DNA of 49,183 nucleotides from Caldilineaceae bacterium (GCA_022824685.1 JAJDZJ010000139.1:1-49183), one strand, 5' to 3'. Shown: positions 9,960-32,390, numbered from the stretch's first letter. Numbers and translations: made by a program. The notes: generated from the sequence alone by a model not told the origin.

Positions 9960-11149
9960 AGGTTTTGCTCCGTCTGCGAAACGAGGAAGTCGACGACCGC
10001 CTTGCCGTCTTCGCCGCTTTGGCGCCACACATGGCGCTGCTGGTCGGAACTGGCCCCCCGCCGCATGATGTTGTGGAGGTGGGATACCTCTTCGCGGCAG
10101 TTGAGGCGGTCAAGAACGGGTTCGACCCGTTCCAGCAGTTCGTGCAGGAGGTCGTGAATGGGCACTTCCTGTTCGATGCCGAAGTCGAGCAGTTTTCCCT
10201 GGAGCCCGTAGCGCACGGCCCGCCATTTGTTCTCGGCAATGAGGGTGCGGTCGTAGAGGCGGAAGGACATGTTGCGATGGCGAAGGTCGACCATCCAGGC
10301 GACGGTGGCCTGGATCAGGGCGGCGACGGCGAGTACGTCGTCGATGTCGGGCAGGGCGTCGCAGACCCGAATTTCAAGCGCGGCCTGTTCGGTTGCTGAC
10401 GTTTTGGACCGGGTGTTCGCTTCGGATTCGGGGCGCGGGCGCGAAGGATCCTGCTGATGGGAGTGGGGGCGGATATCCCACCAGATGGCTTCCGAGTCGG
10501 GAATGCTGTTGGTGCGCAAGAGGGTTTCGACGTAGTCGAGGTAGTCGTTGAGGCTGCGGAAGGCGTTGGGGATGCCGGTGCGGGGCAGGGCGTCCAGGAG
10601 GACGGAGCGGTAGCTGGCCAACCCGGTATCGAGGCCCTGCCAGAAGGGAGAGGCGTTGGCAAGGCAGAGAATGTGGGGCAAGAGGTAGCGCATCGCGTTC
10701 ATGACATCGATTGCCAGATTTCTGTCTTCGATGCCGATGTGGACGTACATGCCGAAGGCGAGCAGGCGGCGGGCGATGAACTGTGTGTCCTCGATCAGGG
10801 CGCGATAGCGGGGCGACTCCTCCTGTTCCCGTTCCCAGTAGGTGAAGGGGTGCGCCCCGGCCACCATGAGTTTGAGGCCGTGCGACTCGGCCAGATCGCG
10901 CATTTCGCGGCGGATACGCAACAGATCCTGGCGGGCCTGCTTGACATCCCGGCAGATCGGGGTGCCGGCGCGGGGCGCGACCAGTTCACTCTCTTCTCTA
11001 CGGGCCTTGGCCTCACCTTTCCCCTGGGAGTCCAATAGGGTGAGCCCCTGGGCGGTGGCGAACCCGCGTAGTTCCCGGGTTTCCGGGTGGACGAACTGAT
11101 ACTCCTCTTCGATGCTGATATTGAAGGATGGTTGGCTGTACTCGGCCAT
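9956..11149 (-). CDS. GCS2-type carboxylate-amine ligase, first of a tandem pair
   Basis: This 397-aa paralogue of the following gene has the same motifs: [26 protein letters not shown] (Tyr in place of the first His of the usual MHIHVG), LEIRVCD and [13 protein letters not shown]. It carries an extra Pro/Ser/Arg-rich insertion of about 25 residues after the WWDIRPHSH segment, which the partner lacks. The two copies are clearly diverged, so the duplication is old and they may act on different substrates or as a heteromer. The ATG at 11149 follows an AAGAAGAGAG stretch. The upstream ATP-grasp gene ends 43 bases earlier. The His-to-Tyr change may affect metal binding. Confidence 0.9.
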
Positions 11150-16829: not shown

Positions 16830-16911
16830 TTGACGGTTGGATATTGATGTTCAGGTCCGGCGCCGTGCGGAAGGACGTGAACAGCGGCTGCCAGGGAGCT
16901 GTTGGTCTAAC

Positions 16912-16946
16912 GCCCAATGCTGACAGTGCCAAGGTCAGCATTGGGC
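16912..16946 (-). terminator. Perfect 13-bp stem-loop between the LarA-like and PdxA genes
   Basis: GCCCAATGCTGAC pairs perfectly with GTCAGCATTGGGC around a 9-base loop. It lies 19 bases past the LarA-like stop and 82 bases before the PdxA start. No T-run follows on the minus strand, so it may be an attenuator, processing site or protein-binding palindrome rather than a simple terminator. It splits the operon into an upstream and a downstream part. Confidence 0.6.
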
Positions 16947-16965
16947 AATTTAGTTGGCCTGCAGA

Positions 16966-18291
16966 TCAAGCATATTCCAGAATTGGCTCCATTTGCCACG
17001 GGGTCTGCATAACGCCCTCTGTGAAGGTCAGCGGCGTTTCGCCGGTGATGGTGAGGCGTGGATGGCTCTCGACTTCGGCGCGCAGGCTGGGACTGACGTA
17101 GAAATCTTCCAGGGTCAGGGTATCGCGGATGAAGACGATTTTGGCGGCTTCCTGGGGCTCTGCGCAGATGCGGAGGGAGACTTCGAGGGCGCGTTCATCG
17201 TTGGCGAAGGTGAGGGGCAGGTGGGAGCGGGTGGCGCTGAAGATGCCGGATGTCACGGCGTTCATGTAGGTGGCCTGCCAGTCGATCTTGCGGAAGACGC
17301 GTTCGGTGGTCACGTTGGCGAGGCCGAGGCCGGAGACGTTGCCGTGGGTCTCTTCGGTCAGGTCGAGGACTGTGATGATGGCGACGTCGACTTTGCCGAA
17401 GTTTTCGGGCTGGCGAGGGATGCTGAGGCGGCTGATGACATTTGTGTCCATGCCGGTGCCAGAGATGTTTTTGCCGAGGTCGCGTACGACCAGGACGTCC
17501 ACTGCCTCAAAGGGGATCTGGGCGAGGTAGTCCTTGGCCTTGACCAGCAGGTCGGCCTCTGTTTTGGTGCCGACTTCGGCCGCGGTGAGGCCGGCGATGA
17601 GAGCGGTGTCCTCGAAAGCGTTTTCGACGGGGCAGATGGCGCCGCGGAAGTTGGTGTTGGCCTCGTAGACGCGTGCGGCGGGCTCCAGGTAGATCTGGAA
17701 GTTTTTGCCGCCGCCGCTGTGCATCATGGATGCGCCGTGCTGTTTGCCCCAGCCGATGACGCACATTTTGGAGGGGCCGCTTTCCAGGTGGCTGCGGAAG
17801 TCGGTGTGCGGCTTGATGCGGCTGACGAGAATGGCGTGGTCAGCGGCGATGGAGTCTTTGCCCTGGCAGACTGCCGGCCCGTCGGGGATGCGCCCGATTT
17901 CGGCCACTTCCATGGTCGCCCTGATTTCCACGCCCATGGCATCCTCGGTGACGCCCATGCCGGCGAGGATCTCCTTTTGTCCTTCGACGGTGGCTCCGCC
18001 GTGGCTGCCCATGGCGGGGACGACGTATGGCCTCATGCCGGCGGCTTTGAGGTGGTCAACGGCCGCCCGCACGATGTGGGCGAGATTGGCGATGCCGCGG
18101 CTGCCGGCGCCGATGGCGACGGAATCGCCCGGCTGCATGGGCGCCATGATGCCGCTTTGGGTGAGGGCTCTGCCGACGGCGGCGTGGATGTCATCGACCT
18201 GGGGTGTGTCGAAGGTCTGGTGAACGGCCAGGAGCGAGTCGGGCAGGTTGGCGGGGAAGCGGATGTCCTGGATGTCTTGAAGCAGGTTCAT
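16966..18291 (-). CDS. LarA-like protein (lactate racemase/DUF2088 family)
   Basis: This 441-aa protein belongs to the LarA superfamily. LarA is a nickel-pincer (NPN) enzyme that racemises lactate, and relatives racemise or epimerise other 2-hydroxy acids, including sugar acids. Apparent counterparts of the LarA catalytic residues are His97 in MGSHGGAT, His162 in KPHTDF and Lys175 in SGPSKM; Arg65 sits in the GAGSRG loop. None of the cofactor-maturation genes (larB, larC, larE) is in the window. In this operon, with HUMPS, PdxA and dehydrogenase genes, a sugar-acid 2-epimerase role is plausible. AAGGAGAC eight bases before the ATG gives a good start. The residue assignments need an alignment to confirm. 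Confidence 0.85.
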   Translation of the reverse strand: MNLLQDIQDIRFPANLPDSLLAVHQTFDTPQVDDIHAAVGRALTQSGIMAPMQPGDSVAIGAGSRGIANLAHIVRAAVDHLKAAGMRPYVVPAMGSHGGATVEGQKEILAGMGVTEDAMGVEIRATMEVAEIGRIPDGPAVCQGKDSIAADHAILVSRIKPHTDFRSHLESGPSKMCVIGWGKQHGASMMHSGGGKNFQIYLEPAARVYEANTNFRGAICPVENAFEDTALIAGLTAAEVGTKTEADLLVKAKDYLAQIPFEAVDVLVVRDLGKNISGTGMDTNVISRLSIPRQPENFGKVDVAIITVLDLTEETHGNVSGLGLANVTTERVFRKIDWQATYMNAVTSGIFSATRSHLPLTFANDERALEVSLRICAEPQEAAKIVFIRDTLTLEDFYVSPSLRAEVESHPRLTITGETPLTFTEGVMQTPWQMEPILEYA

Positions 18292-18383
18292 CGTTTATGT
18301 CTCCTTCTGATGAGCTATGCAGGTCTCAAATGCTTGTTCTGGTTGAAGAAGATTTTGAGCAGCGCCAGCCAGCACTGCCATTT

Positions 18384-19058
18384 TTATCCTTTGACCTTGG
18401 CCACTATCTCTCGCAGAAGGCCTTCAAAGTCGTCGGTGGCGGCGGTGAAGGCGTCGGATGCGATTACGAGCGGAGCGCCGAAGACCACGATTTCGGCGCC
18501 CAGTTCGAGCGTTTCGATGGCCTGTTCGACGGTCAGCCCGCCGACGGCCTGCACGGGGATGTCGACGGCGTCGAGGATGGCCGGCAGGTCATCGAGGGGG
18601 CTGAGGCCGGGAATCATGGCGCGTTCATCAAAGCCGGTATGGACGATGATAACATCGACGCCCATTTCCTGGGCTTCTTTGGCGCGGCCGGGTTTATCGG
18701 GGCAGAGCATGACGTCGCACATGACTTTGCCGCTGCAGCGCTGCGCCATCTTGACCTGTTCGATGATGCTGGCGTCGTGGGCGACACCCATGACGACGAC
18801 GTAGTCAGCGCCGGAGTTGAACATCATTTCGGCTTCGAGGCCGGCGCCGTCCATTGTTTTGAGGTCGGCCACGATGGGATGATCGGGGAAGGCCTCGCGC
18901 ATGGCGCGGACGCTGTGGAGCCCTTCGGCAAGAATCAGGGGCGTGCCGGCTTCGAGCCAGTCGACGCCGGCGCGCACGGCGGCGCCCGCCATGTCGAGGG
19001 CCTCTTCGATGGAAGTTACGTCGAGTGAGACCTGGATGATTGGATCTTTTTTGGGCAA
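18384..19058 (-). CDS. HUMPS-family protein: 3-keto-L-gulonate-6-phosphate decarboxylase or hexulose-6-phosphate synthase
   Basis: This 224-aa (beta/alpha)8 protein is of the orotidine-phosphate-decarboxylase suprafamily. The diagnostic IVADLKTMDGAG segment has Asp65-Lys67-Asp70 in the conserved D-x-K-x-x-D arrangement. Family members decarboxylate 3-keto-L-gulonate 6-phosphate (ascorbate/gulonate route) or condense formaldehyde with ribulose 5-phosphate. The catabolic neighbours here favour decarboxylation of a keto-acid phosphate. No PHI isomerase gene, the usual partner of the synthase, is present. The start is TTG at 19058 with CGGAG seven bases before it; the N-terminal MPKKDPIIQVSLD matches the first barrel strand of the family. 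It is separated from the LarA-like gene by 92 bases. Confidence 0.88.
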   Translation of the reverse strand: MPKKDPIIQVSLDVTSIEEALDMAGAAVRAGVDWLEAGTPLILAEGLHSVRAMREAFPDHPIVADLKTMDGAGLEAEMMFNSGADYVVVMGVAHDASIIEQVKMAQRCSGKVMCDVMLCPDKPGRAKEAQEMGVDVIIVHTGFDERAMIPGLSPLDDLPAILDAVDIPVQAVGGLTVEQAIETLELGAEIVVFGAPLVIASDAFTAATDDFEGLLREIVAKVKG

Positions 19059-19111
19059 CTTTACGCTCCGCGGGAGATGGATGTGGGCGATTCCAGATGC
19101 TCTGTCGGGCT

Positions 19112-19726
19112 CTACCTACTTGCTTCAGAGAATACGTTACCTACGTCGACTTTGAAGTCTTTCAGAAGTACAGATAATGCCTCCTCGCCTGCGAGGTACT
19201 CACCATGAAGCGCGTACTCCTGTCCGCGTAACGTGAGGACGGTGATTGACACATTGGCAGGATCGACGATCCAGTATTCGGGGATCCCGGCCTGCGAATA
19301 CTCGCTGCGTTTGATTGCCTTGTCTCTATCGGGATCATTGGGGCTGACGATTTCCATGACGAGGTCTGCGCCTTCCCAGAATCTGTCAGAGCGTCGGTCA
19401 TCATTCTCAATATGCATGAACAGAATATCGGGTTCTCTGATTTTGCCTGGCCATAGTTGGACCCGCATGGGCGCCAGCAGAACAGTGCCAAGTTGCCTTT
19501 CACGGACATAATTATGGAGGAGTTCAAAAAGAGCAATGACCAGTAGCTGATGCGACTGGGTTGGCATTGGCAGGACCTCCAACTGACCGTGGGAGAATTC
19601 GATCAGATGATTGGTATCCAGCGCCAGATACTCTTCTTCGCTCCAGTGGCCTTGGGCGGGGTAGAGTTGGGCGATCTCCCAGGTCGGTTCCGGGGCGTCT
19701 ATGTGTTCTGTCGTAGGGACGGCCAT
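19112..19726 (-). CDS. Uma2 family putative endonuclease
   Basis: This 204-aa single-domain Uma2 (DUF820) protein is shorter than the copy at 7230-8195 and lacks its coiled-coil tail. The core motifs are present: HLIEFSHGQLEVLPMPT at the N-terminal strand, REPDILFMH with the catalytic-type Asp, DLVMEIVSP with the Glu, and the KRSEYSQAGIPEYWIVD helix-strand. It sits inside the dehydrogenase-HUMPS-LarA run with gaps of 44 and 53 bases, so it is probably co-transcribed, but no metabolic link is apparent. Uma2 genes are commonly scattered in such genomes. Biological role unknown. Confidence 0.9.
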   Translation of the reverse strand: MAVPTTEHIDAPEPTWEIAQLYPAQGHWSEEEYLALDTNHLIEFSHGQLEVLPMPTQSHQLLVIALFELLHNYVRERQLGTVLLAPMRVQLWPGKIREPDILFMHIENDDRRSDRFWEGADLVMEIVSPNDPDRDKAIKRSEYSQAGIPEYWIVDPANVSITVLTLRGQEYALHGEYLAGEEALSVLLKDFKVDVGNVFSEASR

Positions 19727-19770
19727 GAGTTGCCTCGCTTACATCGCCAACAGATGCGTGCGTCCTCGGG

Positions 19771-20811
19771 TCAGGCGTCCAGACGGAGGACCGATTTCAC
19801 GTTGTCGCCGTGCTCCATGCTTTCGAAAGCCTCTTCCCAGTCTTCAAGGGGGTAGATGCCGCCGATGACCGGCCCCAGATTTACCTGCCCTGTGGAGAGC
19901 AGGGTGAGCACACGCTCCCAGGTGGGGTAGAGGTGGCTGAAGGTGCCCTGGAGTGTTACGGCTTTGGCCACGAGCGGGTCGAGGCTGAAATCGAGCGGCT
20001 GCGGGCCCCAGCCGATTTTGGTGATGCGTCCGTTTGGCCGTACCAGCTCCATTGACTGTTGCAGCGCCTTGCTGACGCCGGTGGCGTCGATGACCAGGTC
20101 GGCGCCGAAGCCGTCTCCCAGCGATTCGATGAGCGCCTTTGGATCCTCGCGCTGGATGTTGAGCGTGTAATCGGCGCCGAGCTCGGCGGCCACCTCCATG
20201 CGCTTGGCGTCGGCGTCGGTGCCGAGAACGACGAGGGCGCCGGCGCCGCGGATGCGGGCGATCTGGAGGGCCATGATGCCGATTGGACCTGGGCCCTGGA
20301 TCACGACGAGGTCGCCTGGTTTCATGGCGGTTTTTTCGACGAGGGCGTTGTAGGCGACGCAGATCGGTTCAGTGAGGGCGGCGTGCTCGTCGGGCACGTT
20401 GTCCGGTACGCGGTGGAGGATCTGGGGACGGGCGGCGACGTAGCGGGTCATGGAGCCGTCGGCGAGGGCGCCGTAGCCGAGGCGGTTGGGGCAGAGGTTG
20501 TAGTTGCCGCTGAGGCAGTAGACGCAGGCGTCGCACACCTTGGCGGCGGTTTCGACGGCCACCCTGTCGCCGATCTCCCAGCCGGATACGTCGTCGCCGG
20601 CATCGACGATGACGCCGGCGAACTCGTGGCCGAGTACGAGCGGCAGCGTGATCTCCCACGACTGCATGTTGCGCCACATGTGTACATCGGAGCCGCAAAC
20701 GCCGGTGGCTTTGACCTCGACCATGACCTGGCCGGGTGCCATTTGCGGCTCGGGTACGTCGCGTATTTCTACTTCTTTATCGCCGAATCCGAACTTGGCA
20801 ACTGCTTTCAT
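19771..20811 (-). CDS. Zinc-dependent alcohol/polyol dehydrogenase
   Basis: This 346-aa MDR dehydrogenase carries both zinc sites. The catalytic site is Cys39 (GVCGSD), His62-Glu63 (GHEFAG) and a later Glu. The structural site is Cys93, Cys96, Cys99 and Cys107 in the CDACVYC-SGNYNLC segment. The Rossmann motif is GPGPIG. It resembles sorbitol, threonine and galactitol-type dehydrogenases and would oxidise a secondary hydroxyl of a sugar or sugar acid with NAD(P). It is the first gene of the minus-strand acid-sugar operon, which makes it a likely first oxidative step. It differs from the dehydrogenase at 274, which has lost the structural zinc. Its start has no strong Shine-Dalgarno sequence. 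Confidence 0.93.
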   Translation of the reverse strand: MKAVAKFGFGDKEVEIRDVPEPQMAPGQVMVEVKATGVCGSDVHMWRNMQSWEITLPLVLGHEFAGVIVDAGDDVSGWEIGDRVAVETAAKVCDACVYCLSGNYNLCPNRLGYGALADGSMTRYVAARPQILHRVPDNVPDEHAALTEPICVAYNALVEKTAMKPGDLVVIQGPGPIGIMALQIARIRGAGALVVLGTDADAKRMEVAAELGADYTLNIQREDPKALIESLGDGFGADLVIDATGVSKALQQSMELVRPNGRITKIGWGPQPLDFSLDPLVAKAVTLQGTFSHLYPTWERVLTLLSTGQVNLGPVIGGIYPLEDWEEAFESMEHGDNVKSVLRLDA

Positions 20812-20906: not shown

Positions 20907-20974
20907 CCCGAAATCTGTACGGGCAGGCGAACGCGCCAGACAGAAAGGGTGCAGTCCAGTTTTGGGGTGAGAGT

Positions 20975-21000
20975 GGGCAGGCACAAGGCCTGCCCCTACC
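20975..21000 (+). repeat. Dispersed CACAAGGG palindromic repeat, copy 3
   Basis: GGGCAGG-CACAAGG-CCTGCCC forms a perfect 7-bp hairpin, followed by CCTACC. It has the same architecture as the units at 8611 and 8736 with a different but compensating stem, the expected sign of a folding constraint. Confidence 0.6.
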
Positions 21001-21090
21001 GTGGTCACGGCGGACGGCTGCGCGGCACGACTTGGGTGGGCGACCGGTGGCACAGACAGTACGCCGGCGACGCGGCGCCAACGTGGCATG

Positions 21091-21157
21091 GTGTCTGGGG
21101 GGCGTTGCGGGGGGAATCCCCCCGCACAAGGGAGGGCCGAAGGCCCGACCGCCCAAA
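21091..21157 (+). repeat. Dispersed GTGTCTGGGGGGCG...GACCGCCCA repeat, copy 2
   Basis: This is a close match to the element at 14476-14541 over its left 40 bases, with a different inner palindrome (GGGCCGAAGGCCC). A G-rich tract with repeated GGGGTCA follows to about 21195. No gene lies in 20812-21622 besides these repeats and the promoter at 21368. Confidence 0.7.
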
Positions 21158-21367
21158 GGCAGAGGTTAGGGGCGAGGGGTCAGGGGTCAGAGGCGACGGC
21201 ACTTGCCCTGATCGGGGACGCGCATTGGCGTTAGCTCAGTCGTTACCTGAGGTGTACGAAAGTTCACCCCCGTTTTGGGATGCACACGATAGAAAGGTGT
21301 TTCATGGATGGGGAGGAAAGAAACTGAAGAGTGGTTGCGCAGAGGCGCGCCGGTCCAAAAAGGGAGG

Positions 21368-21396
21368 TTGACATGAATTCATGTATATAGTATTTT
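21368..21396 (+). promoter_or_regulatory. Near-consensus sigma-70 promoter with a 12-bp palindrome in the spacer
   Basis: TTGACA at 21368-21373 is followed by exactly 17 bases and TATTTT at 21391-21396. The spacer overlaps CATGAATTCATG (21372-21383), a perfect 12-bp palindrome that would place a dimeric repressor directly on the polymerase site. The local sequence is AT-rich in a GC-rich background. The mRNA would have a leader of about 220 bases before the first gene of the DegT-ABC-DegT cassette. Confidence 0.65.
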
Positions 21397-21622
21397 GCTT
21401 ACATCTCCACAGGTCGTTGCGATCGTGTACACCTTTGAACAACCTTTTGTCGTTCATGACGAAGAATCTTAAATCACTTCAGAGAGCTAACAGCGGTCGA
21501 GGTTAACGCTCTGTCGGGCTCTTGAAACGCAGTTCCAGTTTTGGACGGGAGTGGCAGCGGCATCATCGGTACTGAGGGTGGATGGAATAGACCCCCATGC
21601 AGGACGTCGAGGGAGCCAAAAA

Positions 21623-22885
21623 ATGGCGGAGAGATTGACTGATGCGACAGCTGCGAGGCTCCGGCCCAGTGCGGGGCATGTCGAAGAAACGCTGGGTGCG
21701 TTACCCACCATGTTTCCGCGTACCGTCGGTCCGAATTGCCTCAAATACGTTCAGGAAGTCATCTCCGGTGGACTGAAGGTAAATATGGCTGAGCGCTTTG
21801 AGAAGGCGTTTGCAGAGTCACTGGGGGTGAAACATTGTGTGACGACACCAGGATGCACGTCAGCGCTGGCCACGCTCGCCGCTGCACTTGAATTCGAACC
21901 AGGCGATGAGGTAATTGTCAGTCCCGTAACGGATTTTGGCACCATTCAGGGTCTGTGCCTGGAGAATTATATTCCCGTGTTTGCCGATACGGAGGCCGGC
22001 ACGGTGAATGTGAGCGCTGAGACGATTGAGCCGTGCATTACGGATCGTACGCGGGCGGTCCTGGTCGTACACAAGACGGGACTGGTCTGCGATATGGACC
22101 CGATAAACGAACTGGCGCGCAGGCACAATCTCTTTGTTTGTGAGGACGCCTGTCAGGCGGCCTTCAGCGAGTATAAGGGTCGGGTGGTGGGGACACTGGC
22201 TGACGCGGCGGCATTTTCGTTTGATCCCGAGAAGACGATGAGTTCCGACATAGGTGGCTGTGTCGTCACCGACGATGATGCGCTGGCGTCGCGCATGCGC
22301 TTTATCGCACACGATCGCGGCGCGGTGTGGATCCCTGGCTTCGGACGTTATCATCATGAAATGGGTTACTCGTACCGGATGCCGGAATGCACTGCGGCGA
22401 TATGCCTGGGGCAGCTTGAGGTAATCCATGAGCACGCGGCCCATCGGGACAGAATCGCGCGTCTGCTGTGGCCTCTGCTTTCAGAGATCCCGGGCGTCAC
22501 ACCGCTGCCGATTCCAGACAACGTAAATCTGTTTTCGTGCTGGATGGTCGGTCTTTGGATGGACCCGTCGCAGTTCAATTGCACGGCGGAGGAACTTTCT
22601 CAACAGTTGGCCGACGCGGGAATCCCGGGCGCAGGTACTGCAAAGTATTACCTGATGCCCGAGGCCCTTGCCTTTTTGCAGAAGCGGACTGAAAGCAGGT
22701 CGCATCAGTTTTCCATACCGCCGGCGTCGCGAACATATACCTACGGCGCTGATACTTGCCCCAATGCAAAGGCATATCTTGAGAACTTCGTCCGCTGGGC
22801 GTCTGTCAGCGAAAAGTATCAGCCGGAACATTGCGAGCTTGTCGCGGACATCGTGCGGACGGTGGCGGACCGCAATCGCCATTAG
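21623..22885 (+). CDS. DegT/DnrJ/EryC1/StrS family aminotransferase (first of cassette)
   Basis: This 420-aa PLP aminotransferase is of the sugar/cyclitol type. The PLP lysine is Lys194 in DPEKTMSSDIGG, the pyridine-N aspartate is Asp165 in CEDACQAAF, and the active-site segment GYSYRMPECTAA is present. The region around VTTPGCTSALATLAAAL provides the phosphate cup. The ATG at 21623 has GAGGGAG seven bases upstream and is preferred over 21551. It opens a plus-strand cassette with a binding protein, two permeases and a second DegT enzyme. It may aminate an imported keto-sugar or, in reverse, deaminate an imported amino-sugar or aminocyclitol. Family certain, substrate unknown. Confidence 0.93.
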   Translation: MAERLTDATAARLRPSAGHVEETLGALPTMFPRTVGPNCLKYVQEVISGGLKVNMAERFEKAFAESLGVKHCVTTPGCTSALATLAAALEFEPGDEVIVSPVTDFGTIQGLCLENYIPVFADTEAGTVNVSAETIEPCITDRTRAVLVVHKTGLVCDMDPINELARRHNLFVCEDACQAAFSEYKGRVVGTLADAAAFSFDPEKTMSSDIGGCVVTDDDALASRMRFIAHDRGAVWIPGFGRYHHEMGYSYRMPECTAAICLGQLEVIHEHAAHRDRIARLLWPLLSEIPGVTPLPIPDNVNLFSCWMVGLWMDPSQFNCTAEELSQQLADAGIPGAGTAKYYLMPEALAFLQKRTESRSHQFSIPPASRTYTYGADTCPNAKAYLENFVRWASVSEKYQPEHCELVADIVRTVADRNRH

Positions 22886-22923
22886 GCTCGTGTTGAGAAG
22901 AGAAGGAGGTGGCGCATAGGAAA

Positions 22924-22989
22924 ATGTCTTCGTCGACGTGCGTGAGGAGGTCGTACAACTCTACGTTTGCTTCCAGTCCGAGACTGTAA
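22924..22989 (+). CDS. Possible 21-codon leader ORF before the binding-protein gene
   Basis: ATG at 22924 opens a 21-codon frame ending at TAA 22987-22989, ten bases before the start of the binding-protein gene. A strong GGAGGT lies at 22905-22910, though 13 bases from the ATG is a long spacing. The peptide (MSSSTCVRRSYN...) is Ser/Arg-rich and resembles nothing known. It may be a translated leader or chance. Confidence 0.25.
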   Translation: MSSSTCVRRSYNSTFASSPRL

Positions 22990-22999
22990 AGGAGGAATC

Positions 23000-24367
23000 A
23001 TGCGTCCGACAGGAAAGATCAACCGACGAGATTTCTTGCGTCTTTCTGCGGTAACGGTCGCAGGGGCGTCTGCAGTGGCCTGTGTGCCGGCCGCTCCGGC
23101 GACGGAAATGACGGACGAGGGTGATGCCGCGCCGTCCGCTGAAATGGTGGAACTGATATATTGGTACGACAACTCGTACCCTGAGGCGACGATGAGTCTG
23201 GCTGGGGAGGAGTTTAACGAGTCGCAGGGGAATATCTCGATAGAGATGGTGCCATTGCCATACGGTGAAGCGATTCAGAAGGTCTATGTCGCCCTGGCCG
23301 GCGGCGAGGCTCCTTTTGACCTGACCTTTAACCATCCAATGCAGCGGGCAACGTATGCTGTCCGCGGCGTTTTGATTCCCTTGAATGACTATATCGAAGC
23401 GGACGACCGGGTTAATGTGGATAACTTCTACCCCGGCTTGGTGGAGAATCTGTCCTGGCAGGGGCAGATATACGCCATCGCCGACGGCGCACACCCAATG
23501 TTCGTCCTGTACAATCCCAGTTTGATTGAAGCAGCAGGTCTGGAAGATCCGTGGGATGTCTATCAGGCAGGGGGATGGACGCTGGAGAAGTGGGAGCGCG
23601 AATATGCGGGGGCGCTTTCCACTGGTGAGGGAGTCGAAAGGCAGTGGGGCCGCACACCAATGTCCCGAACTATCAGACTCGAAAATCTCTGGATCTGGGG
23701 CTTTGGGGGCGATGTCTGGAACGAGGATAACACGGCGACCGTCATCAACGAGCCCGAAGCGATAGAGGCTTGGAATTGGATGGCGGATACGACGAAGTTG
23801 GGTTACACGCCGACGCCGGCGGAGGCGGAGGAGTTTCGCGGCGGCGCGGAGATGATGAACTCCGAACGTGTGGCGATGGGGTTTTTCCATCGAGAGATTC
23901 TCCCGTACTTGCGAGAGGATCTGGTTCTGGGCCAGGTTCCATTGCCCGAGATGCCCAATGGACCGACGATCACGCGCAATCCGCCTGAAGGGCCGGGCAT
24001 TTACAGCGGGAGCCCACATCCGGATGAGGCGTGGGAGTATGTATCCTTCAACACCAACCGGACGCACGAACTGCTTATTCTGGCCCATTACGGTGACCCC
24101 ACTTCACCAGAGGTGGCGGAGTCTGATCTTTGGCTGAAACAGGGTCTGCTGCCCTGGGAGAGACCTGAGGTGGTTGACATTGCGGCCGCGCAGGTCACGA
24201 GGGTCATCCTTCACATTCCGGGCATTCGGGAGATGGACGCGCTCATCCAAGGGGCTTGGGATGAAATCGTTCTGGACCGGAAGACAGCGCAGGCGGCCAT
24301 GGATGAGGTGAAGCCGGAAGTCGATCAATTGATAACAGAGTATCGCGAAGAGTACGGAGATTTCTAG
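23000..24367 (+). CDS. Tat-exported ABC sugar-binding lipoprotein (family 1)
   Basis: This 455-aa extracellular solute-binding protein belongs to a carbohydrate ABC importer. The N-terminus has a twin-arginine motif (NRRDFLRLS, Arg9-Arg10) and a lipobox ending at Cys28 (SAVAC), so it is probably exported folded through Tat and lipid-anchored. An Ala/Pro/Glu-rich linker leads to the first lobe (VELIYWYDNSYPEA), typical of family-1 proteins. GGAGG at 22991-22995 precedes the ATG. The MalF- and MalG-type permeases follow, but no ATPase does. A DegT aminotransferase flanks each end of the unit. Ligand unknown; an aminated or keto cyclitol or sugar is a guess from context. Confidence 0.92.
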   Translation: MRPTGKINRRDFLRLSAVTVAGASAVACVPAAPATEMTDEGDAAPSAEMVELIYWYDNSYPEATMSLAGEEFNESQGNISIEMVPLPYGEAIQKVYVALAGGEAPFDLTFNHPMQRATYAVRGVLIPLNDYIEADDRVNVDNFYPGLVENLSWQGQIYAIADGAHPMFVLYNPSLIEAAGLEDPWDVYQAGGWTLEKWEREYAGALSTGEGVERQWGRTPMSRTIRLENLWIWGFGGDVWNEDNTATVINEPEAIEAWNWMADTTKLGYTPTPAEAEEFRGGAEMMNSERVAMGFFHREILPYLREDLVLGQVPLPEMPNGPTITRNPPEGPGIYSGSPHPDEAWEYVSFNTNRTHELLILAHYGDPTSPEVAESDLWLKQGLLPWERPEVVDIAAAQVTRVILHIPGIREMDALIQGAWDEIVLDRKTAQAAMDEVKPEVDQLITEYREEYGDF

Positions 24368-24543
24368 CGCCAGCGGCGATGCCGACGACACAACATCCGG
24401 CAACATTGCAACTCTGAGGAGGACAGATTCAGTAACTGGAGGCGTAGTGGCGTTTACCGTTGGGCACAGTGCTCCACGGGCGCCACTTCGCCAAGCACTC
24501 GTCTCCCCGCAGGTTTGAAGCTACCAGAATAAGGAACATCCTG

Positions 24544-25455
24544 TTGAAAATGGCATCGATACAGTCCATGTTGGGTTCGCGTACGCAGTTGCGCCGAGAC
24601 ATTCTCGGATATATGTTCATAGCGCCCTGGCTGGTCGGCTTCATCGTATTTACGGCGGGTCCGATGATTGGCCTGGTGTACCTCGCCTTCACCCGCTACC
24701 CCGTCCTGTCACCGCCCACATTCAACGGGCTGGACAACCTGGAGAGGATGGTCGGAGACAGGTTCTTTACCATCTCACTATGGAACACAGCCTATTTCAC
24801 TTTTTTGGGCGTACCGGCACAGGTAGTTTGGGCACTGATGCTTGCGCTGTTGCTCAACATGCGAGTGCATGGCGTAAACGTATTCCGCACTTTGTATTAT
24901 CTGCCCACCATCATTCCCGGCGTTGCCAGTGTGTTCCTCTGGATGTACATCTTCAATCCTGACTATGGGCTGGCCAACTACATCTTGTCTTTGTTTGGGA
25001 TACCGGGCCAGGCCTGGTTGTGGGACCCTGAACTGTCCAAGCCTTCCCTTATCATCATGGAACTCTGGCGCGTGGGCACGATGATGGTGGTGTTCCTGGC
25101 TGGGTTGCAGGGTGTGCCTTCGTCGCTCTACGATGCGGCCGCGATCGACGGTGCAGGCATGTTTGCTCAGTTCAGGCATGTCACGGTGCCGATGATTACA
25201 CCGCTTATTTTCTTCAATCTGGTGGTCGGCATCATCAGTTCTTTCCAGATATTCACCGCAGCATACATCGCTACTCAGGGCGGCCCTGTTCACACTACGC
25301 TTTTCTACGTGCTTTTTGTTTATCGACATGCGTTCGAGAATCTGCGGATGGGCTATGCCTCTCTTTTGGCGTGGGTGTTGTTTTTCATTATTTTGGTCTT
25401 TACTATCGTTCAGTTCAGGATGGCGCGCTTATGGGTGTTCTACGAAGTGGAATGA
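24544..25455 (+). CDS. ABC sugar transporter permease, MalF type
   Basis: This 303-aa inner-membrane subunit has about six transmembrane helices, starting with GYMFIAPWLVGFIVFTAGPM. The cytoplasmic EAA loop, which docks on the ATPase, is SSLYDAAAIDGAGMFAQFRHVTVP. TTG at 24544 with AAGGA eight bases upstream is the likely start; ATG at 24550 is an alternative. The frame opens as far back as 24460 but that part is not family-like. It shares an ATGA overlap with the next gene. The 176-base gap after the binding-protein gene has only a weak TGCCG/CGGCA hairpin, in contrast to the strong stem-loops in the two minus-strand sets. Confidence 0.92.
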   Translation: MKMASIQSMLGSRTQLRRDILGYMFIAPWLVGFIVFTAGPMIGLVYLAFTRYPVLSPPTFNGLDNLERMVGDRFFTISLWNTAYFTFLGVPAQVVWALMLALLLNMRVHGVNVFRTLYYLPTIIPGVASVFLWMYIFNPDYGLANYILSLFGIPGQAWLWDPELSKPSLIIMELWRVGTMMVVFLAGLQGVPSSLYDAAAIDGAGMFAQFRHVTVPMITPLIFFNLVVGIISSFQIFTAAYIATQGGPVHTTLFYVLFVYRHAFENLRMGYASLLAWVLFFIILVFTIVQFRMARLWVFYEVE

Positions 25456-26300
25456 GACCTATCTCATTCCCTTTTGTGTCCAACGCGATACGGTATGCGC
25501 TGTTGATTCTTGGTGGCGTGATCTGTTTCATTCCCCTTGGGTGGATGGTGTCAACTTCTCTGAAGATGCCTGGCACAGAGTTTATCTTCCCTCCGGAGTT
25601 GATTCCGCGGCCGGTGGTTTGGAGCAACTATATCGACGCCGTTACACGTCCGGGACATCCTTTCTTTCTCTACACTCGCAATAGTGTTGTGATCACACTG
25701 GCGGCCACCTTGGGCACTGTCCTGACAAGCTCATTTGTAGCGTTTGGTTTTGCCCGAATACGCTTCAGGGGCCGTGATTTCTGGTTCATCGTGCTTCTCT
25801 CCACGTTGATGCTTCCCGATGTGGTCCGTTTGATTCCCTCATTTATTTTGTTCAAACTGTTGGGGTGGATCGATACACTGTTGCCTCTTATCGTACCGTT
25901 CTGGTTTGGCGTCAATGCTTTCTATGTTTTTCTGATTCGCCAGTACTTCAGGACGATTCCGTTGGAGCTGGATGAGGCGGCGTTGATGGATGGGGCCGCT
26001 TACGTGCGCATTTACTGGCAGGTCATTTTGCCGATTTCGGGACCGGTGCTGGGCGCGGTGACGATCTTTTCGGTCCTCAGTCATTGGAATGATTTTTTGG
26101 GGCCTCTGATATACACGAATTCAGTAGACCTGCGCACACTTGCGCTCGGACTGCGCTTCTTCATGAGTCGAACAGGCACGGACTGGAACCAGCTGATGGC
26201 TGCGTCTATCCTGATGCTAGCCCCGATACTGGCGCTGTTTTTCTCGATGCAGAGATATTTTATCCGCGGCATTCATATGACAGGCTTTGGAGGTCGGTAG
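25452..26300 (+). CDS. ABC sugar transporter permease, MalG type
   Basis: This 282-aa membrane subunit has about six helices, beginning with ALLILGGVICFIPLGWMVSTS. The EAA loop is ELDEAALMDGAAYVRIYWQVILP and the C-terminus ends in the usual MQRYFIRGIHMTGFGG. ATG 25452 overlaps the MalF stop as ATGA; another ATG at 25431 would add seven residues. It forms the permease heterodimer with the preceding gene. Because no ATPase is in this cassette, the complex probably uses the shared ATPase encoded at 30383-31465. Confidence 0.92.
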   Translation: MRPISFPFVSNAIRYALLILGGVICFIPLGWMVSTSLKMPGTEFIFPPELIPRPVVWSNYIDAVTRPGHPFFLYTRNSVVITLAATLGTVLTSSFVAFGFARIRFRGRDFWFIVLLSTLMLPDVVRLIPSFILFKLLGWIDTLLPLIVPFWFGVNAFYVFLIRQYFRTIPLELDEAALMDGAAYVRIYWQVILPISGPVLGAVTIFSVLSHWNDFLGPLIYTNSVDLRTLALGLRFFMSRTGTDWNQLMAASILMLAPILALFFSMQRYFIRGIHMTGFGGR

Positions 26301-26343
26301 TTGAATCCAGGCTTTCTGAGCGGGAACCAAGGGGGCAGACAGG

Positions 26344-27594
26344 ATGAAAGGGACAACAGAGCAACTGGCAGTTGACGGCGGGACTCCTGTTTTTGCGGAG
26401 CCAATCGGCCAGAATCTAGCTATACGCAAAGTTGGCGCAGAAGAGGCGGAAAGTGTGGCTGCGCTGATTCGCGGTGGAATAAGCGGCGATCCAATCGATG
26501 CGTTTTGCGAGGCATTCAGACAAGCCCATGGAGTGCGCCACGGGGTCGCTGTGGATTCGGGAACGGCGGCCGTTCACGTTGGAGTTGTCGCGGCCGGCGT
26601 CGAACCCGGTGATGAGGTGATTCTCCCTGCGATCAGCGACGTTGGTTCGGTGAAGGGGATCCTCGCCCATAATGCTATCCCGATATTCGCCGATGTAGAT
26701 CTGCACACCTACAATATCGATCCCGTCGATGTCGAGTCGAAGATTTCAGACAGGACTAAGGCGATCATAGCCGTCCATCTTTACGGTCAGCCGGCGCCAA
26801 TGGACGAATTGATGGATATTGGCAAGCGCCATAATGTCCCAGTCATCGAGGACTGCGCGCAGGCGCACTTCGCTGAGTACAAAGGACGGAGAGTAGGAAC
26901 TATCGGAGACATTGGAGTGTTCAGCTTCATCACCGGCAAACATATGACAACGATCACCGGCGGTATGGTGATGACGAACAATGACGAGTATGCTAAGCGG
27001 GCGGAGCTGTTCAGCATCGGGCGGGGTGAGGAAGAAGGAAAGAAAGAGGGTATGTTCTTCCGAACGCACGTAGGACTCGGACTCAATTATAGAATGAATC
27101 CACTTGGCGCGGCAGTGGGCCTTGTTCAGTTAAACAAGCTGGGCGACATCGTGGCACGGCGCAGAGAAACCGGTCAGATGCTTGACAAACTGATTCACGA
27201 CATTCCCGGACTCAGTCCGCCGCACATCGTTGACGAAGCGATGCACGCTTACTGGCTCTACGCCGTGCGCATGGACGAAGGCGCTTTCACGGCGGACACC
27301 TACGCCTTTGCCAGAGCGCTGCAGGCAGAAGGCGTGTCCTGCATGCCAAAAGACTACTATCTACTGTATGACCATCCTGCCTTTCTGGACCCGGCCCCGC
27401 CGAGAAATCCGGAGTACGCGTTTCCGCGAGCCGTGTATGACGACCGTGAGCGCTATTACAAGGGAATGTGTCCAAACGCCGAACGAGGACTGGCTGCGCA
27501 CATCGTCATCACGTGGAGCGAGTTCTATACGCGGGAAGATGTGCTTGGGGTTGAAAAGGCCCTGCGCAAAGTAGCGGATGCCTACAGAGCATAG
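26344..27594 (+). CDS. DegT/DnrJ/EryC1/StrS family aminotransferase (last of cassette)
   Basis: This 416-aa PLP aminotransferase has Lys199 in ITGKHMTTITGG as the PLP lysine, Asp170 in IEDCAQAHFAEY, and GLNYRMNPLGAAVG at the active site. The N-terminus LAVDGGTPVF is the classic StrS-type opening. It is clearly diverged from the paralogue at 21623 (different lysine-loop sequence), so the two probably act on different substrates or carbons. The last helix ends KVADAYRA. It lies 43 bases after the MalG gene, so it is likely co-transcribed. Paired cyclitol aminotransferases occur in aminocyclitol pathways, but those neighbours are missing here. Confidence 0.93.
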   Translation: MKGTTEQLAVDGGTPVFAEPIGQNLAIRKVGAEEAESVAALIRGGISGDPIDAFCEAFRQAHGVRHGVAVDSGTAAVHVGVVAAGVEPGDEVILPAISDVGSVKGILAHNAIPIFADVDLHTYNIDPVDVESKISDRTKAIIAVHLYGQPAPMDELMDIGKRHNVPVIEDCAQAHFAEYKGRRVGTIGDIGVFSFITGKHMTTITGGMVMTNNDEYAKRAELFSIGRGEEEGKKEGMFFRTHVGLGLNYRMNPLGAAVGLVQLNKLGDIVARRRETGQMLDKLIHDIPGLSPPHIVDEAMHAYWLYAVRMDEGAFTADTYAFARALQAEGVSCMPKDYYLLYDHPAFLDPAPPRNPEYAFPRAVYDDRERYYKGMCPNAERGLAAHIVITWSEFYTREDVLGVEKALRKVADAYRA

Positions 27595-27740
27595 ATGTCG
27601 GGACCAAACATGAAGGACTAGAGGCCGTCATCTTTATCAACTCATCGGCAGTGGCTTCTTTTGCCGTTAACGTCCCCGCACTTACGCGTCCACTGCGCGT
27701 GAGCCATGCCGCTTCAGAGTTGACACGCCCAATAACATAA
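27594..27740 (+). pseudogene. Possible remnant of a protein C-terminus
   Basis: In this frame, just past the aminotransferase, a 48-codon stretch reads VIFINSSAVASFAVNVP and then a Leu/Arg-rich tail before TAA at 27738. It looks like the end beta-strands of a glycoside-hydrolase-type domain, but has no start codon or ribosome-binding site. It could be decayed coding DNA or chance. The rest of the gap to 27788 shows nothing. Confidence 0.2.
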
Positions 27741-27787
27741 CCATGTTGGGGGCCGTCAGAGCCAACTTGCGCTGGACGGCCTGCTCG

Positions 27788-29269
27788 CTATTCCTGGCGC
27801 ACGTGGATGTCGGCGAAGTCCATGTAGCGCTCCCAGTCGTAGTAGGTGACGTCGTGTTTGCCGGTGCGGATGTGGTAGCCGATGGTGCTCCTGACGGGCT
27901 GGTTGACGGGGGGCAGCTCGTTGACGGCGATGCCGTCGGCGCCGAGGAGGCGGTAGACGGGGTCGGCGTTCCTGGCGCCGAGGAATTCGCCGCGGGGGTC
28001 GGCCCAGAGGTCCTCGTCGGCGCTGACGACGTAGACGGGGCGCGGGGCGACGAGGGCGATGAGCATGTGCTGGTCGACGGGCAGCTCGTCTTCCTTGTCG
28101 TTGTAGCGTTTGAAGTTTTCGCAGAACCAGTGGGGATAGGTGACGTTGGCATGGCGGGCGGTTTCGCCGAAGCGGCGGCGGAAGAGCGCGGCGCCGCCGC
28201 AGCCTGAGTTGTTGGGGATGACGAGGGCGAAGCGTTCATCCTGCGCGCCGGCCCAGAGCGCGGTTTTGCCGAGGCGGGACTGTCCCATCACGGCGACGCG
28301 AGTGTGGTCGACGTCGTCGTCGGTCTCCAGGTAGTCGAGCGCGCGGCGCAGGCCCCACGCCCAGGCGCCGATTGCGCCCCATTCATTGGCGGCGGGTTTC
28401 GTCTGCCCGGCTTTGTAATAGAGGGGATGGACGCCGTTCTGGTAGCCGTCGTCATAGTCGGGGTCGAGGTCGCCGTAGTAGATCGTGGCGATGGCGTAAC
28501 CGCGCTCGAGAATGCGCTCGACGGGCCAGCGGGAGAGAGCGTTTCCGCGGCTGGCCTCGGTGGCGCGGTGGTTGCGGATGCCGCGGTCGAAGCGGTTGCG
28601 CATCCACTGCTGTGAGATGGTGATACCGGGATCGCTATGGATCGACTGGTTGCCCTGGAAGTTGGGGACGAGGAAGGAAGGCACGGGCTTCGGTCTGTCG
28701 TTGGGCAGATAGACGAGAATGTCCATCCTGGGATCGTCGCGGCGGCCGGTGAAGTAGACGGCGATCTCTTTGCGCGTCGCCTGGCCGTCGAGGGCGCCTT
28801 CATCGACTGAGGTGACCTCAAAGGTCATATTTTCGGGACGGCCGGGCGCTACGCCGTAGACGTGCTCCTCGAAAAGGCGCAGCAGCTCGGGGCGGCGCTC
28901 TTCCCTCCACATAGCGGCTTCGGTGACTGCGCGACCGTCGGCCATGCGCAGTGGGTCGGGCAGCCCATAGGCGGGTACGCGCGCTTCATCGTAGTTGACA
29001 TCCTCGCACTGGCGAACCTGGTTGTACCAGTCGCTGGCCTGCTGGCGGGTCGGGTCCAGCTTTAAGGCCATTTCGAAGATCTCGGCGGCGAGCGGTTTGT
29101 TGTCCTGCAGGCCGTAGGCGCGGCCGAGCACTTCGTAGGTGAAGGAGTGTGTCAGCAGTTCGGGATGGATGTCCACCAGGTGTGTCAGGTTGGAGATGAT
29201 GTATTCAGGTTTGTCCCAGGTAGTCATCTCTTCCAGCAGAAGGTCCAGTTGCTCAGATACCTTGGCCAT
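27788..29269 (-). CDS. CE15-like (glucuronoyl esterase-like) alpha/beta-hydrolase with TPR-like N-terminus
   Basis: This 493-aa predicted serine hydrolase resembles bacterial CE15 glucuronoyl esterases, which split ester links between glucuronic acid of xylan and lignin alcohols. The nucleophile is Ser331 in GQSRLGK, the conserved [10 protein letters not shown] block follows, and a C-terminal His472 lies in RTGKHDV. The oxyanion-side PNFQGNQS segment is also present. Residues about 20-90 look helical and TPR-like, ending [13 protein letters not shown], an unusual addition. There is no signal peptide, so the protein is probably cytoplasmic and acts on an imported fragment. AAGGA precedes the ATG. 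It ends the minus-strand operon that includes an IolE-like gene and the sugar ATPase. Confidence 0.82.
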
Positions 29270-29348: not shown

Positions 29349-30269
29349 TCAGATCCGGAGAACGTCTCGGAGATAGTCCCGGCTCATCTTGGCGCTCTCG
29401 ACCGGCGACCAGTTTTCGTCTCGCTGTGAACGGCCCACTGAGTCCTGCTCGACGATCATCCAGCCCTGATAGGATTGTGTTCGCAGGGCGTCAAAGAAGG
29501 CTGGAAAATCGATTGCGCCTCGCCCCAGTTCGGCAAAGATGTCCATCGCCCAGGCCTGGCGCATGTGGATCCGTTCCCGCCGCACTTTTTTCAGTTTGTC
29601 CGGCCAGACATCTTTGATATGGAGGTAGCCGATACGGTCGGCGTACCGTTGCGCGGCTTCGACGACGTCGCCGCCGCCGTAGTGGTAGTGGCCGGTATCG
29701 AGACACAGCCCGACCAGTTCGGGGTCGGTCATCGCCATGATCCGTTCAACCTCGGCGGGGGTCTCGACATAGGTGCCGGTGTGATGGTGGAAGACGGTTT
29801 TCAGGTTGAAGCTCTTTTTGCAGTGGGCGGCGACAGTCTCCAGCGCACTGGCGGCGCGTTGCCATTGCGCGTCGGTCCAGCCTTGGCTGCCATCGGCGGC
29901 AACGAAGCCGGCGACGTCAAGGCGCTCGGGCACGGTGTTGCAGGCGATGATGATTTCTGATACGCCGAAGCTGGCGAGGAGCGAGCCGACAGTTTGAACC
30001 TGCTGGAGCATCGAGTCGAGGGCTCCCTCTTCCTCTATCGGCAGGGCGACATAGGAGGAGGCCGCCTGCAGATTTCTCTTTTCCAGCTCGGCGCGCAGAT
30101 CGTCTGCTTCGGCGGGGAAAAAGCCTCCGGCGCTGATCTCAGTCCCCTCGTATCCGGCGGCTGCGATGCCGTCCAGCATCTGGGGAAAGCTGAGGCCGCT
30201 GGTTTTGCTTCCATCAAAGGAAAGGACGTCCCAACTTATCGGGGCGCTGCCTATCTTCACATTCAGCAT
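29349..30269 (-). CDS. IolE-like sugar/inosose isomerase or dehydratase (TIM barrel)
   Basis: This 306-aa TIM-barrel metalloenzyme is close in pattern to IolE (2-keto-myo-inositol dehydratase). Motifs are GSAPISWDV at the start, [13 protein letters not shown] (His161-163), [15 protein letters not shown] (Asp191, His194), IGYLHIKD (His217, Asp220) and a terminal GWMIVEQD strand that supplies the last metal ligand. IolE dehydrates scyllo-inosose; related enzymes epimerise ketohexoses. With two DegT enzymes and uptake genes in the window, inositol-like substrates are an attractive but unproven idea. GAGGAACT before the ATG supports the start. It lies between the sugar-ABC ATPase and the CE15-like esterase on the same strand. 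Confidence 0.85.
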
Positions 30270-30382: not shown

Positions 30383-31465
30383 TCAGCGGATGGCTGCCCC
30401 GGTATTGTCATCGAAGAGATGAAAGCGGTTGAAGGAGAGGCTGAGGTTATCGCCCTCTCGCACTTGGGTTGAGGCTACATCTTTGACCTTGAGGAGGAGG
30501 CCTTCTTTCTCAATGTCAAGAATTGTCTCCGAACCGAGTGGCTCCAGGAGGAAGACTCTGGCCTGGTTGTCGCCTTCGTCATCCGTGGTAAAGCGAATCT
30601 CTTCGGGGCGGACGCCCAGGGTACATTGGCCGCTGGGACAGAGTTCGGCCGCGCGGTCGGCCATTTCAGCGCTGACCGGGATGACAAACTGATCGCTCTT
30701 GTGGACAGTTCTGCCGTTCTCCTTTTGGAGCGCGCCGGGGATGAAGTTCATGGGTGTCGAGCCGACGAAACGGGCGACGAAGTTGTTGGCCGGCAGGTCG
30801 TAGATTTCGCTGGGGGTGCCGAGTTGCTGCAGGGTGCCCTCGTTCATGACCGCGATCTGATCGGCCATCGTCATGCCTTCGACCTGATCATGGGTCACGT
30901 AGATCATGGTTGTGCCCAGCTCGTGCTGGAGGCGCTTGATCTCGGCGCGCATATAGACACGCAGGAGGGCATCGATATTGGAGAGCGGCTCATCCATGAG
31001 GAAGACGACGGGTTCGCGCACGATGGCTCTGCCGAGAGCGATGCGCTGCTGCTCGCCGCCGGAGCAGAGACCGGGCGGCCGCTCCAGAGTGTGGCTGATG
31101 CCCAGCATTTCGGCCACGTCGCGGACGCGGCGCTCGATCTCGTCCTTTGGCGTCTTTCGCAGGCGCAAGGGGTAGGCGATGTTGTCGAAGGCGGTGAAGT
31201 GGGGGTAGAGAGCGTAGCTTTGGAAGACGAGCGCGACATCGCGTTCGCGCGGTTCGAGGTCGTTGACGCGCGTTTCGCCGATGTAGATGTCACCGTAGGT
31301 GGGGCGCTCGAGGCCGGCTACGCAGCGCATGGTGGTGGTCTTGCCGCAGCCGGAGGGGCCGAGCAGGACGACCAGATCGCCGTCCCTGACGACGAGATTT
31401 AGTTGATTTACGGCGCAGGTATCGCCGAAGTACTTTGTCAGGCCTTCTATTCTTACTTCCGCCAA
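30383..31465 (-). CDS. Sugar ABC transporter ATP-binding protein (UgpC/MsmK type)
   Basis: This 360-aa ATPase energises carbohydrate importers. Motifs are Walker A GPSGCGKTT at 36-44, Q-loop Gln82, Walker B FLMDEP with Asp158-Glu159, and H-loop His192. The signature loop is CSGGE at 134-138 rather than the usual LSGGQ. The C-terminal third is the regulatory OB-like domain with LGVRPEEIRF. The start is TTG at 31465 with AAGGAGAG eight bases upstream; the frame is open to 31504, but that would overlap the preceding permease gene and bury the ribosome-binding site. It is the only such ATPase in the window, so it may serve all three binding-protein/permease sets. Confidence 0.92.
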   Translation of the reverse strand: MAEVRIEGLTKYFGDTCAVNQLNLVVRDGDLVVLLGPSGCGKTTTMRCVAGLERPTYGDIYIGETRVNDLEPRERDVALVFQSYALYPHFTAFDNIAYPLRLRKTPKDEIERRVRDVAEMLGISHTLERPPGLCSGGEQQRIALGRAIVREPVVFLMDEPLSNIDALLRVYMRAEIKRLQHELGTTMIYVTHDQVEGMTMADQIAVMNEGTLQQLGTPSEIYDLPANNFVARFVGSTPMNFIPGALQKENGRTVHKSDQFVIPVSAEMADRAAELCPSGQCTLGVRPEEIRFTTDDEGDNQARVFLLEPLGSETILDIEKEGLLLKVKDVASTQVREGDNLSLSFNRFHLFDDNTGAAIR

Positions 31466-31481
31466 AGTGTACTCTCCTTGC

Positions 31482-32390
31482 TCACTGGCCGCTGGCGACG
31501 CCAAAGGTCAGCCCGCGCACCAAGAATCTCTGTAATGTAAAGGCGGCCACCAGCACCGGGAACACGGCGATCGTGCCGGCGGCGCTGACCACGCCCCAAT
31601 CGAGCTCGTGCTGCGGGATCTGTGCCTGGATCGCAATTGGCAGCGTCATCGTCTTCATGGAATTCACGAAATAGAGCGCGATGATGTACTCGTTCCAGTT
31701 GAAGATAAAGAGCAGGATGGCGATCGAAAAGAGGCTGGGAAATATCAGGGGCAGCAGGATGCGGCGCACTGCGCCGAAACGGGTATCGCCATCCATCAGG
31801 GCCGCTTCCTCCACATCCATGGGGACGTCCATAAAAGTGCCGCGCAGGACCCAGACGGCGAAGGCGGTGTTGAGAACGGTATAAAGGATGATCAGGGTGT
31901 ATTTTTCGTCGATGATTCCGAGATCACTGCCGAGGAGGAAGAGGGGGATGGCGGAGGCGATGGGGGGCAGGAGCGCGACGAGGCCCATGAGGCCGACGAC
32001 GATGGCGACGAACTTGAAGGGCAGGCGCATCCTGGTGGCGGCGTAGGCAGCGGGCACTGCGATAATGAGGCAGATGATGGTTGCCAGGGTGGAAACGACG
32101 AGACTGTTGTAGACGTTTTCGAGGATACGGCGTTCAAAGATGGTCACCCAGGCGTCGAGCCGGGGATCGGTCGGGAAGAAGCGGGGCGGGATGTGGGCGA
32201 GGTCGCGCAAGGACTTGATGGAAGAGATCGCGACCCAATACATGGGGACGAGGGTCCAGAAGGCGGCGAGGTAGAGGACGATGACAACGAGCAGCTTTCG
32301 CGGGTTGAGACGGCGCCCCTGCGCAGCCATTACTACATCCTGGGGCACGGGTTCGTTGGTTGTCGTCTCACTCACATCTGTTTGTGCCAT
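31482..32390 (-). CDS. ABC sugar transporter permease, MalG type (second minus-strand set)
   Basis: This 302-aa membrane subunit has an N-terminal cytoplasmic leader of about 30 residues and then about six helices, first VVIVLYLAAFWTLVPMYWV. The EAA loop is DVEEAALMDGDTRFGAVRRI. The C-terminus has LQRFLVRGLTFGVASG. It lies 33 bases after the MalF partner and its end is 16 bases from the ATPase start, consistent with one transcript. Substrate unknown. Confidence 0.92.
   Translation of the reverse strand: MAQTDVSETTTNEPVPQDVVMAAQGRRLNPRKLLVVIVLYLAAFWTLVPMYWVAISSIKSLRDLAHIPPRFFPTDPRLDAWVTIFERRILENVYNSLVVSTLATIICLIIAVPAAYAATRMRLPFKFVAIVVGLMGLVALLPPIASAIPLFLLGSDLGIIDEKYTLIILYTVLNTAFAVWVLRGTFMDVPMDVEEAALMDGDTRFGAVRRILLPLIFPSLFSIAILLFIFNWNEYIIALYFVNSMKTMTLPIAIQAQIPQHELDWGVVSAAGTIAVFPVLVAAFTLQRFLVRGLTFGVASGQ

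Follow-up and report, generated by a model that had tools for sequence, protein, structure and literature searches.

Genes of the DegT/StrS family of aminotransferases are normally annotated as part of amino-sugar biosynthesis. The described members closest to the proteins considered here are GDP-perosamine synthase (PDB 3bn1/3dr4) and other transaminases acting on nucleoside-diphosphate (NDP) sugars, such as ArnB, WecE, and PseC; the L-glutamine:2-deoxy-scyllo-inosose (DOI) aminotransferases BtrR and RbmB, with a non-nucleotide substrate; and KdnA (8-amino-3,8-dideoxy-octulosonate transaminase, PDB 5k8b), with a free sugar acid as substrate. For transport, the nearest systems are the CUT1 sugar importers of the ATP-binding cassette (ABC) type, in which an SBP_bac_1 solute-binding protein (SBP) works with MalF/MalG permeases. 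Our analysis concerns 49,183 nucleotides of DNA from a Caldilineaceae bacterium (GCA_022824685.1 JAJDZJ010000139.1:1-49183), hereafter the window, which is contig C139 of the 5.2-Mb assembly G000. It contains a cassette in which genes of both kinds are combined, in the order DegT1-SBP-MalF-MalG-DegT2 (Table 1). We give an even chance to the reading that this module serves the uptake and transamination of a non-nucleotide solute resembling an amino- or keto-sugar, probably in catabolism.

Organization and conservation of the cassette

All five genes were confirmed and, as an earlier note made from the sequence alone had described, they lie on one strand with short gaps or overlaps (114, 182, -4, and 43 nt from 5' to 3'), which are almost the same in the relatives. 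No terminator-like site was listed in these gaps by a scan of the window cassette, and a single transcript may be inferred across it. The same note had called the second DegT distinct from the first, and indeed the two are only about 34% identical. The order is kept in 10 of the 17 genomes of one genus of uncultured Caldilineaceae, phylum Chloroflexota (counting G003, whose last gene is split by the contig end), with flanks that are syntenic wherever the relatives' contigs extend that far; some bins of this genus we take, from their names, to be sponge-derived. Compared with four relatives, the cassette genes have dN/dS ratios of 0.02-0.09, barring two values, both obtained with the very closely related G008 (MalF, 0; DegT1, 0.21), and judged by these ratios the cassette is under purifying selection in the genus. 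The full cassette was not found outside this genus, nor was any DegT2 orthologue at E<=1e-100 in the other genomes of a sample of 400 from the phylum. The conserved gene order for which the note had proposed to search was thereby found, restricted to one genus.

The slot between an alcohol dehydrogenase (ADH) gene and a glucuronyl-esterase-like gene holds the cassette in 10 genomes of the genus, is empty in two (G013 and G002), and contains genes similar to ABC ATPases in four. At the two empty sites the flanking genes are just ~280 and ~260 nt apart, so that the 6.9-kb stretch is absent in one piece, and without it both flanks form one co-directional series. The glucuronyl-esterase-like gene carries one in-frame stop codon each in G013 (L103) and G012 (L116).

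Upstream of DegT1 lies the sole sigma-70-like site on the + strand in 7.1 kb. Its core recurs as TTGACA-N17/18-TATTAT at the same upstream place in all seven relatives whose contig covers the site, according to an alignment of the regions upstream of the orthologous cassettes; the remaining two cassette genomes either lack upstream sequence (G003) or have an unrelated one (G005). Because the core is conserved in seven other genomes, the promoter is more than a chance match. The earlier note had paired it with a palindromic operator, and that part fell away: the 14-bp palindrome ACATGAATTCATGT occurs in none of the seven relatives that have the promoter, so an operator is unsupported and the palindrome was rejected as a conserved one.

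Table 1. Coordinates of the cassette, its upstream elements, and neighbouring features in the window
Feature	Position	Strand	Remarks
Cassette DegT1-SBP-MalF-MalG-DegT2	21623-27594	+	five genes
Sigma-70-like promoter	21368-21396	+	TTGACA-N17-TATTTT; conserved core, shared with 7 further genomes in the genus
14-bp palindrome ACATGAATTCATGT	21371-21384	.	inside the promoter spacer; window only
DegT1	21623-22885	+	ATG at 21623; PF01041, 245 bits; signature FSFDxEK, EDxCQA
SBP	23000-24367	+	Tat-type lipoprotein solute-binding protein; SBP_bac_1, 72 bits
MalF-type ABC permease	24550-25455	+	ATG at 24550; BPD_transp_1
MalG-type ABC permease	25452-26300	+	BPD_transp_1; 4-nt overlap with MalF
DegT2, second DegT aminotransferase	26344-27594	+	PF01041, 300 bits
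Stretch missing in G013 and G002	20936-27790	.	empty sites between ADH and glucuronyl-esterase-like genes
Pair of adjacent similar proteins	8850-11149	-
Operon-like gene group with third DegT	14578-20811	-	syntenic
IolE-like protein	29352-30269	-	importer operon
MalK	30386-31504	-	nearest to the cassette; syntenic operon

The importer and its link to DegT1

The genus has a second cassette, absent from G000, in which the order is SBP'-MalF'-MalG'-DegT1'-CE4-nitrilase-like-class V aminotransferase-M20-like-creatininase-like (the M20-like label comes from reading the sequence, and the class V aminotransferase-like protein is SufS-like by NCBIfam, below cut-off). DegT1' is present in 11 genomes (L053-L063), with the full context where the contig allows. 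With their counterparts in the window, DegT1' shares 64-66% and MalF'/MalG' 54-57% identity, and SBP' just 22-24%; therefore permeases and DegT1 have remained linked, whereas the binding protein has diverged. This co-retention is the best single argument for a joint function.

The solute-binding protein carries the twin-arginine motif NRRDFLRLS, typical of twin-arginine translocation (Tat), although its Pfam TAT_signal score of 20.5 bits falls slightly below the cut-off of 22.7, and it has a probable lipobox, SAVAC. Together with the two MalF/MalG-type permeases it resembles the CUT1 ABC sugar importers, from which the set differs in lacking an ATPase of its own: no ATPase gene lies within the cassette. 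The nearest MalK gene belongs to a syntenic operon on the opposite strand, and MalF/MalG probably rely on an ATPase of the MalK type that they share with other permeases. Two routes to the ligand were tried and rejected: the matches of SBP among solved binding proteins are diverse sugar binders with weak scores, which name no ligand, and its predicted structure is unusable as a clue, with a predicted local distance difference test score (pLDDT) of 39. The IolE-like protein listed in Table 1 reaches 206 bits with the myo-inosose-2 dehydratase model, below the cut-off of 290, and is duplicated in tandem in L123 and L124.

The two DegT enzymes

DegT1 and DegT2 both score above the PF01041 cut-off of 19.8 bits, and alignment shows that both keep the Schiff-base Lys and the Asp that binds pyridoxal 5'-phosphate (PLP); the former aligns with the Lys mutated in 3dr4 (K186A), the latter with the Asp in the EDAAEA motif of perosamine synthase. 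The structure model of DegT1 (pLDDT 88) has the fold of a type I aminotransferase, with 3bn1 as its best Foldseek match (E 3e-32). The NDP-sugar transaminases, which are also the best sequence matches of both proteins, thus resemble them in fold and catalytic residues, but differ in several respects. Neither DegT1 nor DegT2 attains the cut-off of a curated NCBIfam equivalog for these transaminases (ArnB, WecE, PseC, LegC-type, DesI), the best scores being 157 against 375 and 202 against 423.5, respectively; no NDP-sugar genes were recognised near the window cassette; and the canonical Lys-xx-TTGEGG motif is altered, to SSDIGG in DegT1 and TTITGG in DegT2.

They also occupy a separate place in a tree of 45 rows (IQ-TREE, LG+C20 PMSF), for which the reference set was small and included some partial sequences from the PDB search. 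One clade of 28 rows (support 100/96) unites DegT1, DegT2, the DegTs C205, C50, C49a, and C49b from the same genome, and plasmid-borne DegTs of Rhizobium and Azospirillum, while all eight characterised references (ArnB, WecE, perosamine synthase, AHBA synthase, BtrR, RbmB, KdnA, Fic25) fall outside it. The phylogeny against known StrS clades that the earlier note had suggested thus places both proteins in a well-supported group, to which no characterised enzyme of the reference set used here belongs. The Glu of GEGG is absent from the whole clade and present in the eight references, and is likewise missing from three rows outside the clade (7b0m, C241, C167).

BtrR and RbmB are similar to the cassette enzymes in length, including much of the C-terminal part, but a tree joining DegT2 to them was rejected (AU test, p = 0.0019), and DegT1 is placed outside them in the supported tree; the aminocyclitol idea of the earlier note, taken as an aminotransferase placement, is thus rejected for DegT2 and unsupported for DegT1. 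KdnA aligns to residues 62-407 of DegT2, and its EDACQA motif resembles that of DegT1, but it groups with the DegTs C241, C80, and C127 of the same genome, outside the DegT1/DegT2 clade. On contig C80 (L217, 8196-12787, + strand) the KdnA-side DegT is followed by SBP, MalF, and MalG, a similar order with a different DegT lineage. The third DegT of the window groups with AHBA synthase; its operon-like surroundings (Table 1) encode an ADH, a Uma2-like protein (labelled from sequence reading only), a hexulose-6-phosphate-synthase-like protein, a homologue of LarA that exceeds the cut-off of the NCBIfam model 'nickel pincer cofactor-dependent isomerase, group 22', and a PdxA-like protein. At lower coordinates, two adjacent similar proteins that start near an 'IEEEYQ' motif are perhaps, from a reading of their sequence, a tandem pair resembling carboxylate-amine ligases.

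DegT relatives and their neighbours

When GTDB genome contigs were searched with an alignment of DegT1, 205 relatives came up. The top 80, examined further, are 58-93% identical to DegT1 and all come from metagenome-assembled genomes; the titles of their records include Chloroflexi, Armatimonadota, Latescibacterota, Hydrogenedentota, Gemmatimonadota, Omnitrophota, Planctomycetota, Lentisphaerae, Kiritimatiellaeota, and others. DegT1 is a member of an unnamed DegT family with ~60% identity across many phyla. Among the 62 loci outside the Caldilineaceae, as counted within the fetched flanks, a CE4-like gene of the polysaccharide-deacetylase family is found in 47, an isochorismatase-like gene in 31, a nitrilase-like gene in 12, and a creatininase-like gene in five; at least one of these four types of C-N hydrolase is present in 50, and MalF/MalG of the window type in just six. 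The neighbour profiles were derived from these very loci, and the family identities were confirmed by Pfam. None of the nine neighbourhoods of other DegTs in G000 contains any of the four hydrolase types. The pairing of a transaminase with a de-N-acylating enzyme agrees with a scheme in which an amine is freed and then removed, and the deaminating direction is favoured because an amine-freeing hydrolase would be useful upstream of an amine-removing enzyme.

In cultured bacteria, related DegTs with 36-38% identity to DegT2 over nearly its full length are encoded on plasmids of Rhizobium leguminosarum, R. ruizarguesonis, and Azospirillum brasilense, together with altronate dehydratase, DHDPS-family, shikimate-dehydrogenase-like, and aldehyde dehydrogenase genes, GntR/LacI regulators, and importers nearby. 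By its gene content this cluster looks like one for sugar-acid catabolism. It shares with the window cassette the 28-row clade, a catabolic-looking context, and the vicinity of importers, but differs in having a single DegT and other importer types. In G000 itself, C205, C50, C241, C167, and C80 lie near ABC importer genes (MalF/MalG near C241, C167, and C80 by profile; permeases near C205, C50, C241, and C80 by Pfam), and C49a is beside Gfo/Idh-type dehydrogenases; these contexts were annotated partly by sequence reading.

Proposed function and alternatives

In the mechanism we envisage, the Tat-exported lipoprotein SBP and MalF/MalG would import a carbohydrate-like, non-nucleotide solute, and the PLP-dependent DegT1 and DegT2 would transfer an amino group to or from the free solute or its product, transamination most likely forming the first steps of its use as a source of carbon and nitrogen. 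The two enzymes would divide the labour, with DegT1 removing the amino group to leave a keto compound. Since the hydrolases are missing and SBP differs from its counterpart, the ligand of the window system may already have a free amino or keto group. A published survey (PMC6306507), by whose description Caldilineae of sponges break down sugars, inositol, and uronic acids, fits a catabolic role, and names no such module.

Several observations weigh against this proposal. The window-type cassettes lack CE4 or other hydrolases, and a search for CE4 and isochorismatase-like partners elsewhere in G000 found none (a weak negative), so that the pathway of DegT1 here must differ from the usual one. 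Nor does the cassette contain a kinase, aldolase, or hydrolase to complete a catabolic route. Transaminase reactions are reversible. A haloarchaeal plasmid DegT is clustered with glycosyltransferases and a deacetylase, and CE4 enzymes serve biosynthesis too. Finally, G000 has at least 150 permeases, whose 5-kb surroundings cover ~20% of the genome or more; because permeases are so common, proximity to an importer is weak evidence and was rejected as an argument by itself. Searches of one open-access library yielded nothing relevant on DegT in catabolic operons or on a combination of DegT, CE4, and isochorismatase.

The same facts can be arranged differently. If the DegTs aminated an imported sugar or keto-sugar, the resulting amino sugar could go into a surface glycan, a compatible solute, or a small molecule. 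The characterised DegTs matched by sequence or fold are named as enzymes of biosynthesis, both cassette proteins keep the catalytic residues, and the haloarchaeal relative just mentioned has biosynthetic-looking company. We nevertheless hold such an anabolic or tailoring module to be doubtful: around the window cassette and its syntenic relatives we recognised no gene for a nucleotidyltransferase, glycosyltransferase, N-acetyltransferase, or flippase (the earlier note had already stated, correctly, that the first two are absent), hydrolases abound in the wider neighbourhood of DegT1, and the equivalog scores for NDP-sugar enzymes are far too low. It is unlikely, in our estimate, that importer and DegTs are loose neighbours serving separate pathways and carried merely as one unit of gain and loss. 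The all-or-none occurrence of the unit between identical flanking genes, the ABC-ATPase-similar genes that fill the slot in four genomes, and the plentiful importers of G000 would suit this explanation; the almost constant gaps with their 4-nt overlap, the conserved promoter, and a second cassette that again pairs paralogous MalF-MalG with a paralogue of DegT1 speak against it. That one of the DegTs performs other PLP chemistry on the imported compound (dehydration or elimination) could be read from the altered Lys-xx-TTGEGG motif and the Glu missing throughout the clade. ColD-type dehydratases of the DegT fold have a His in place of the Schiff-base Lys, which is kept in all members compared here, and we regard this explanation as highly improbable.

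Uptake and catabolic transamination, the interpretation that the earlier note had offered, comes out strengthened and plausible from the conserved, selected cassette and from related DegTs beside importers or hydrolases and in the Rhizobium/Azospirillum operon, once the operator and the aminocyclitol are removed from it. A broader view is possible, and we put it forward tentatively: DegT1 and its CE4 partner may mark an unrecognised pathway of many, mostly uncultured phyla. Such a pathway would first de-acylate an N-acylated compound resembling an amino sugar and then deaminate it with a DegT that runs against its usual biosynthetic direction; the Caldilineaceae cassette would be a variant particular to its lineage, equipped with an importer and a second DegT. 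The enzyme pair of DegT1 and CE4, as well as the cultured hosts Rhizobium and Azospirillum, offer material on which this can be tested. Gene context suggests that DegTs built into an importer operon may help to take amino sugars apart and, if this is true, many DegT annotations in environmental genomes would point the wrong way.

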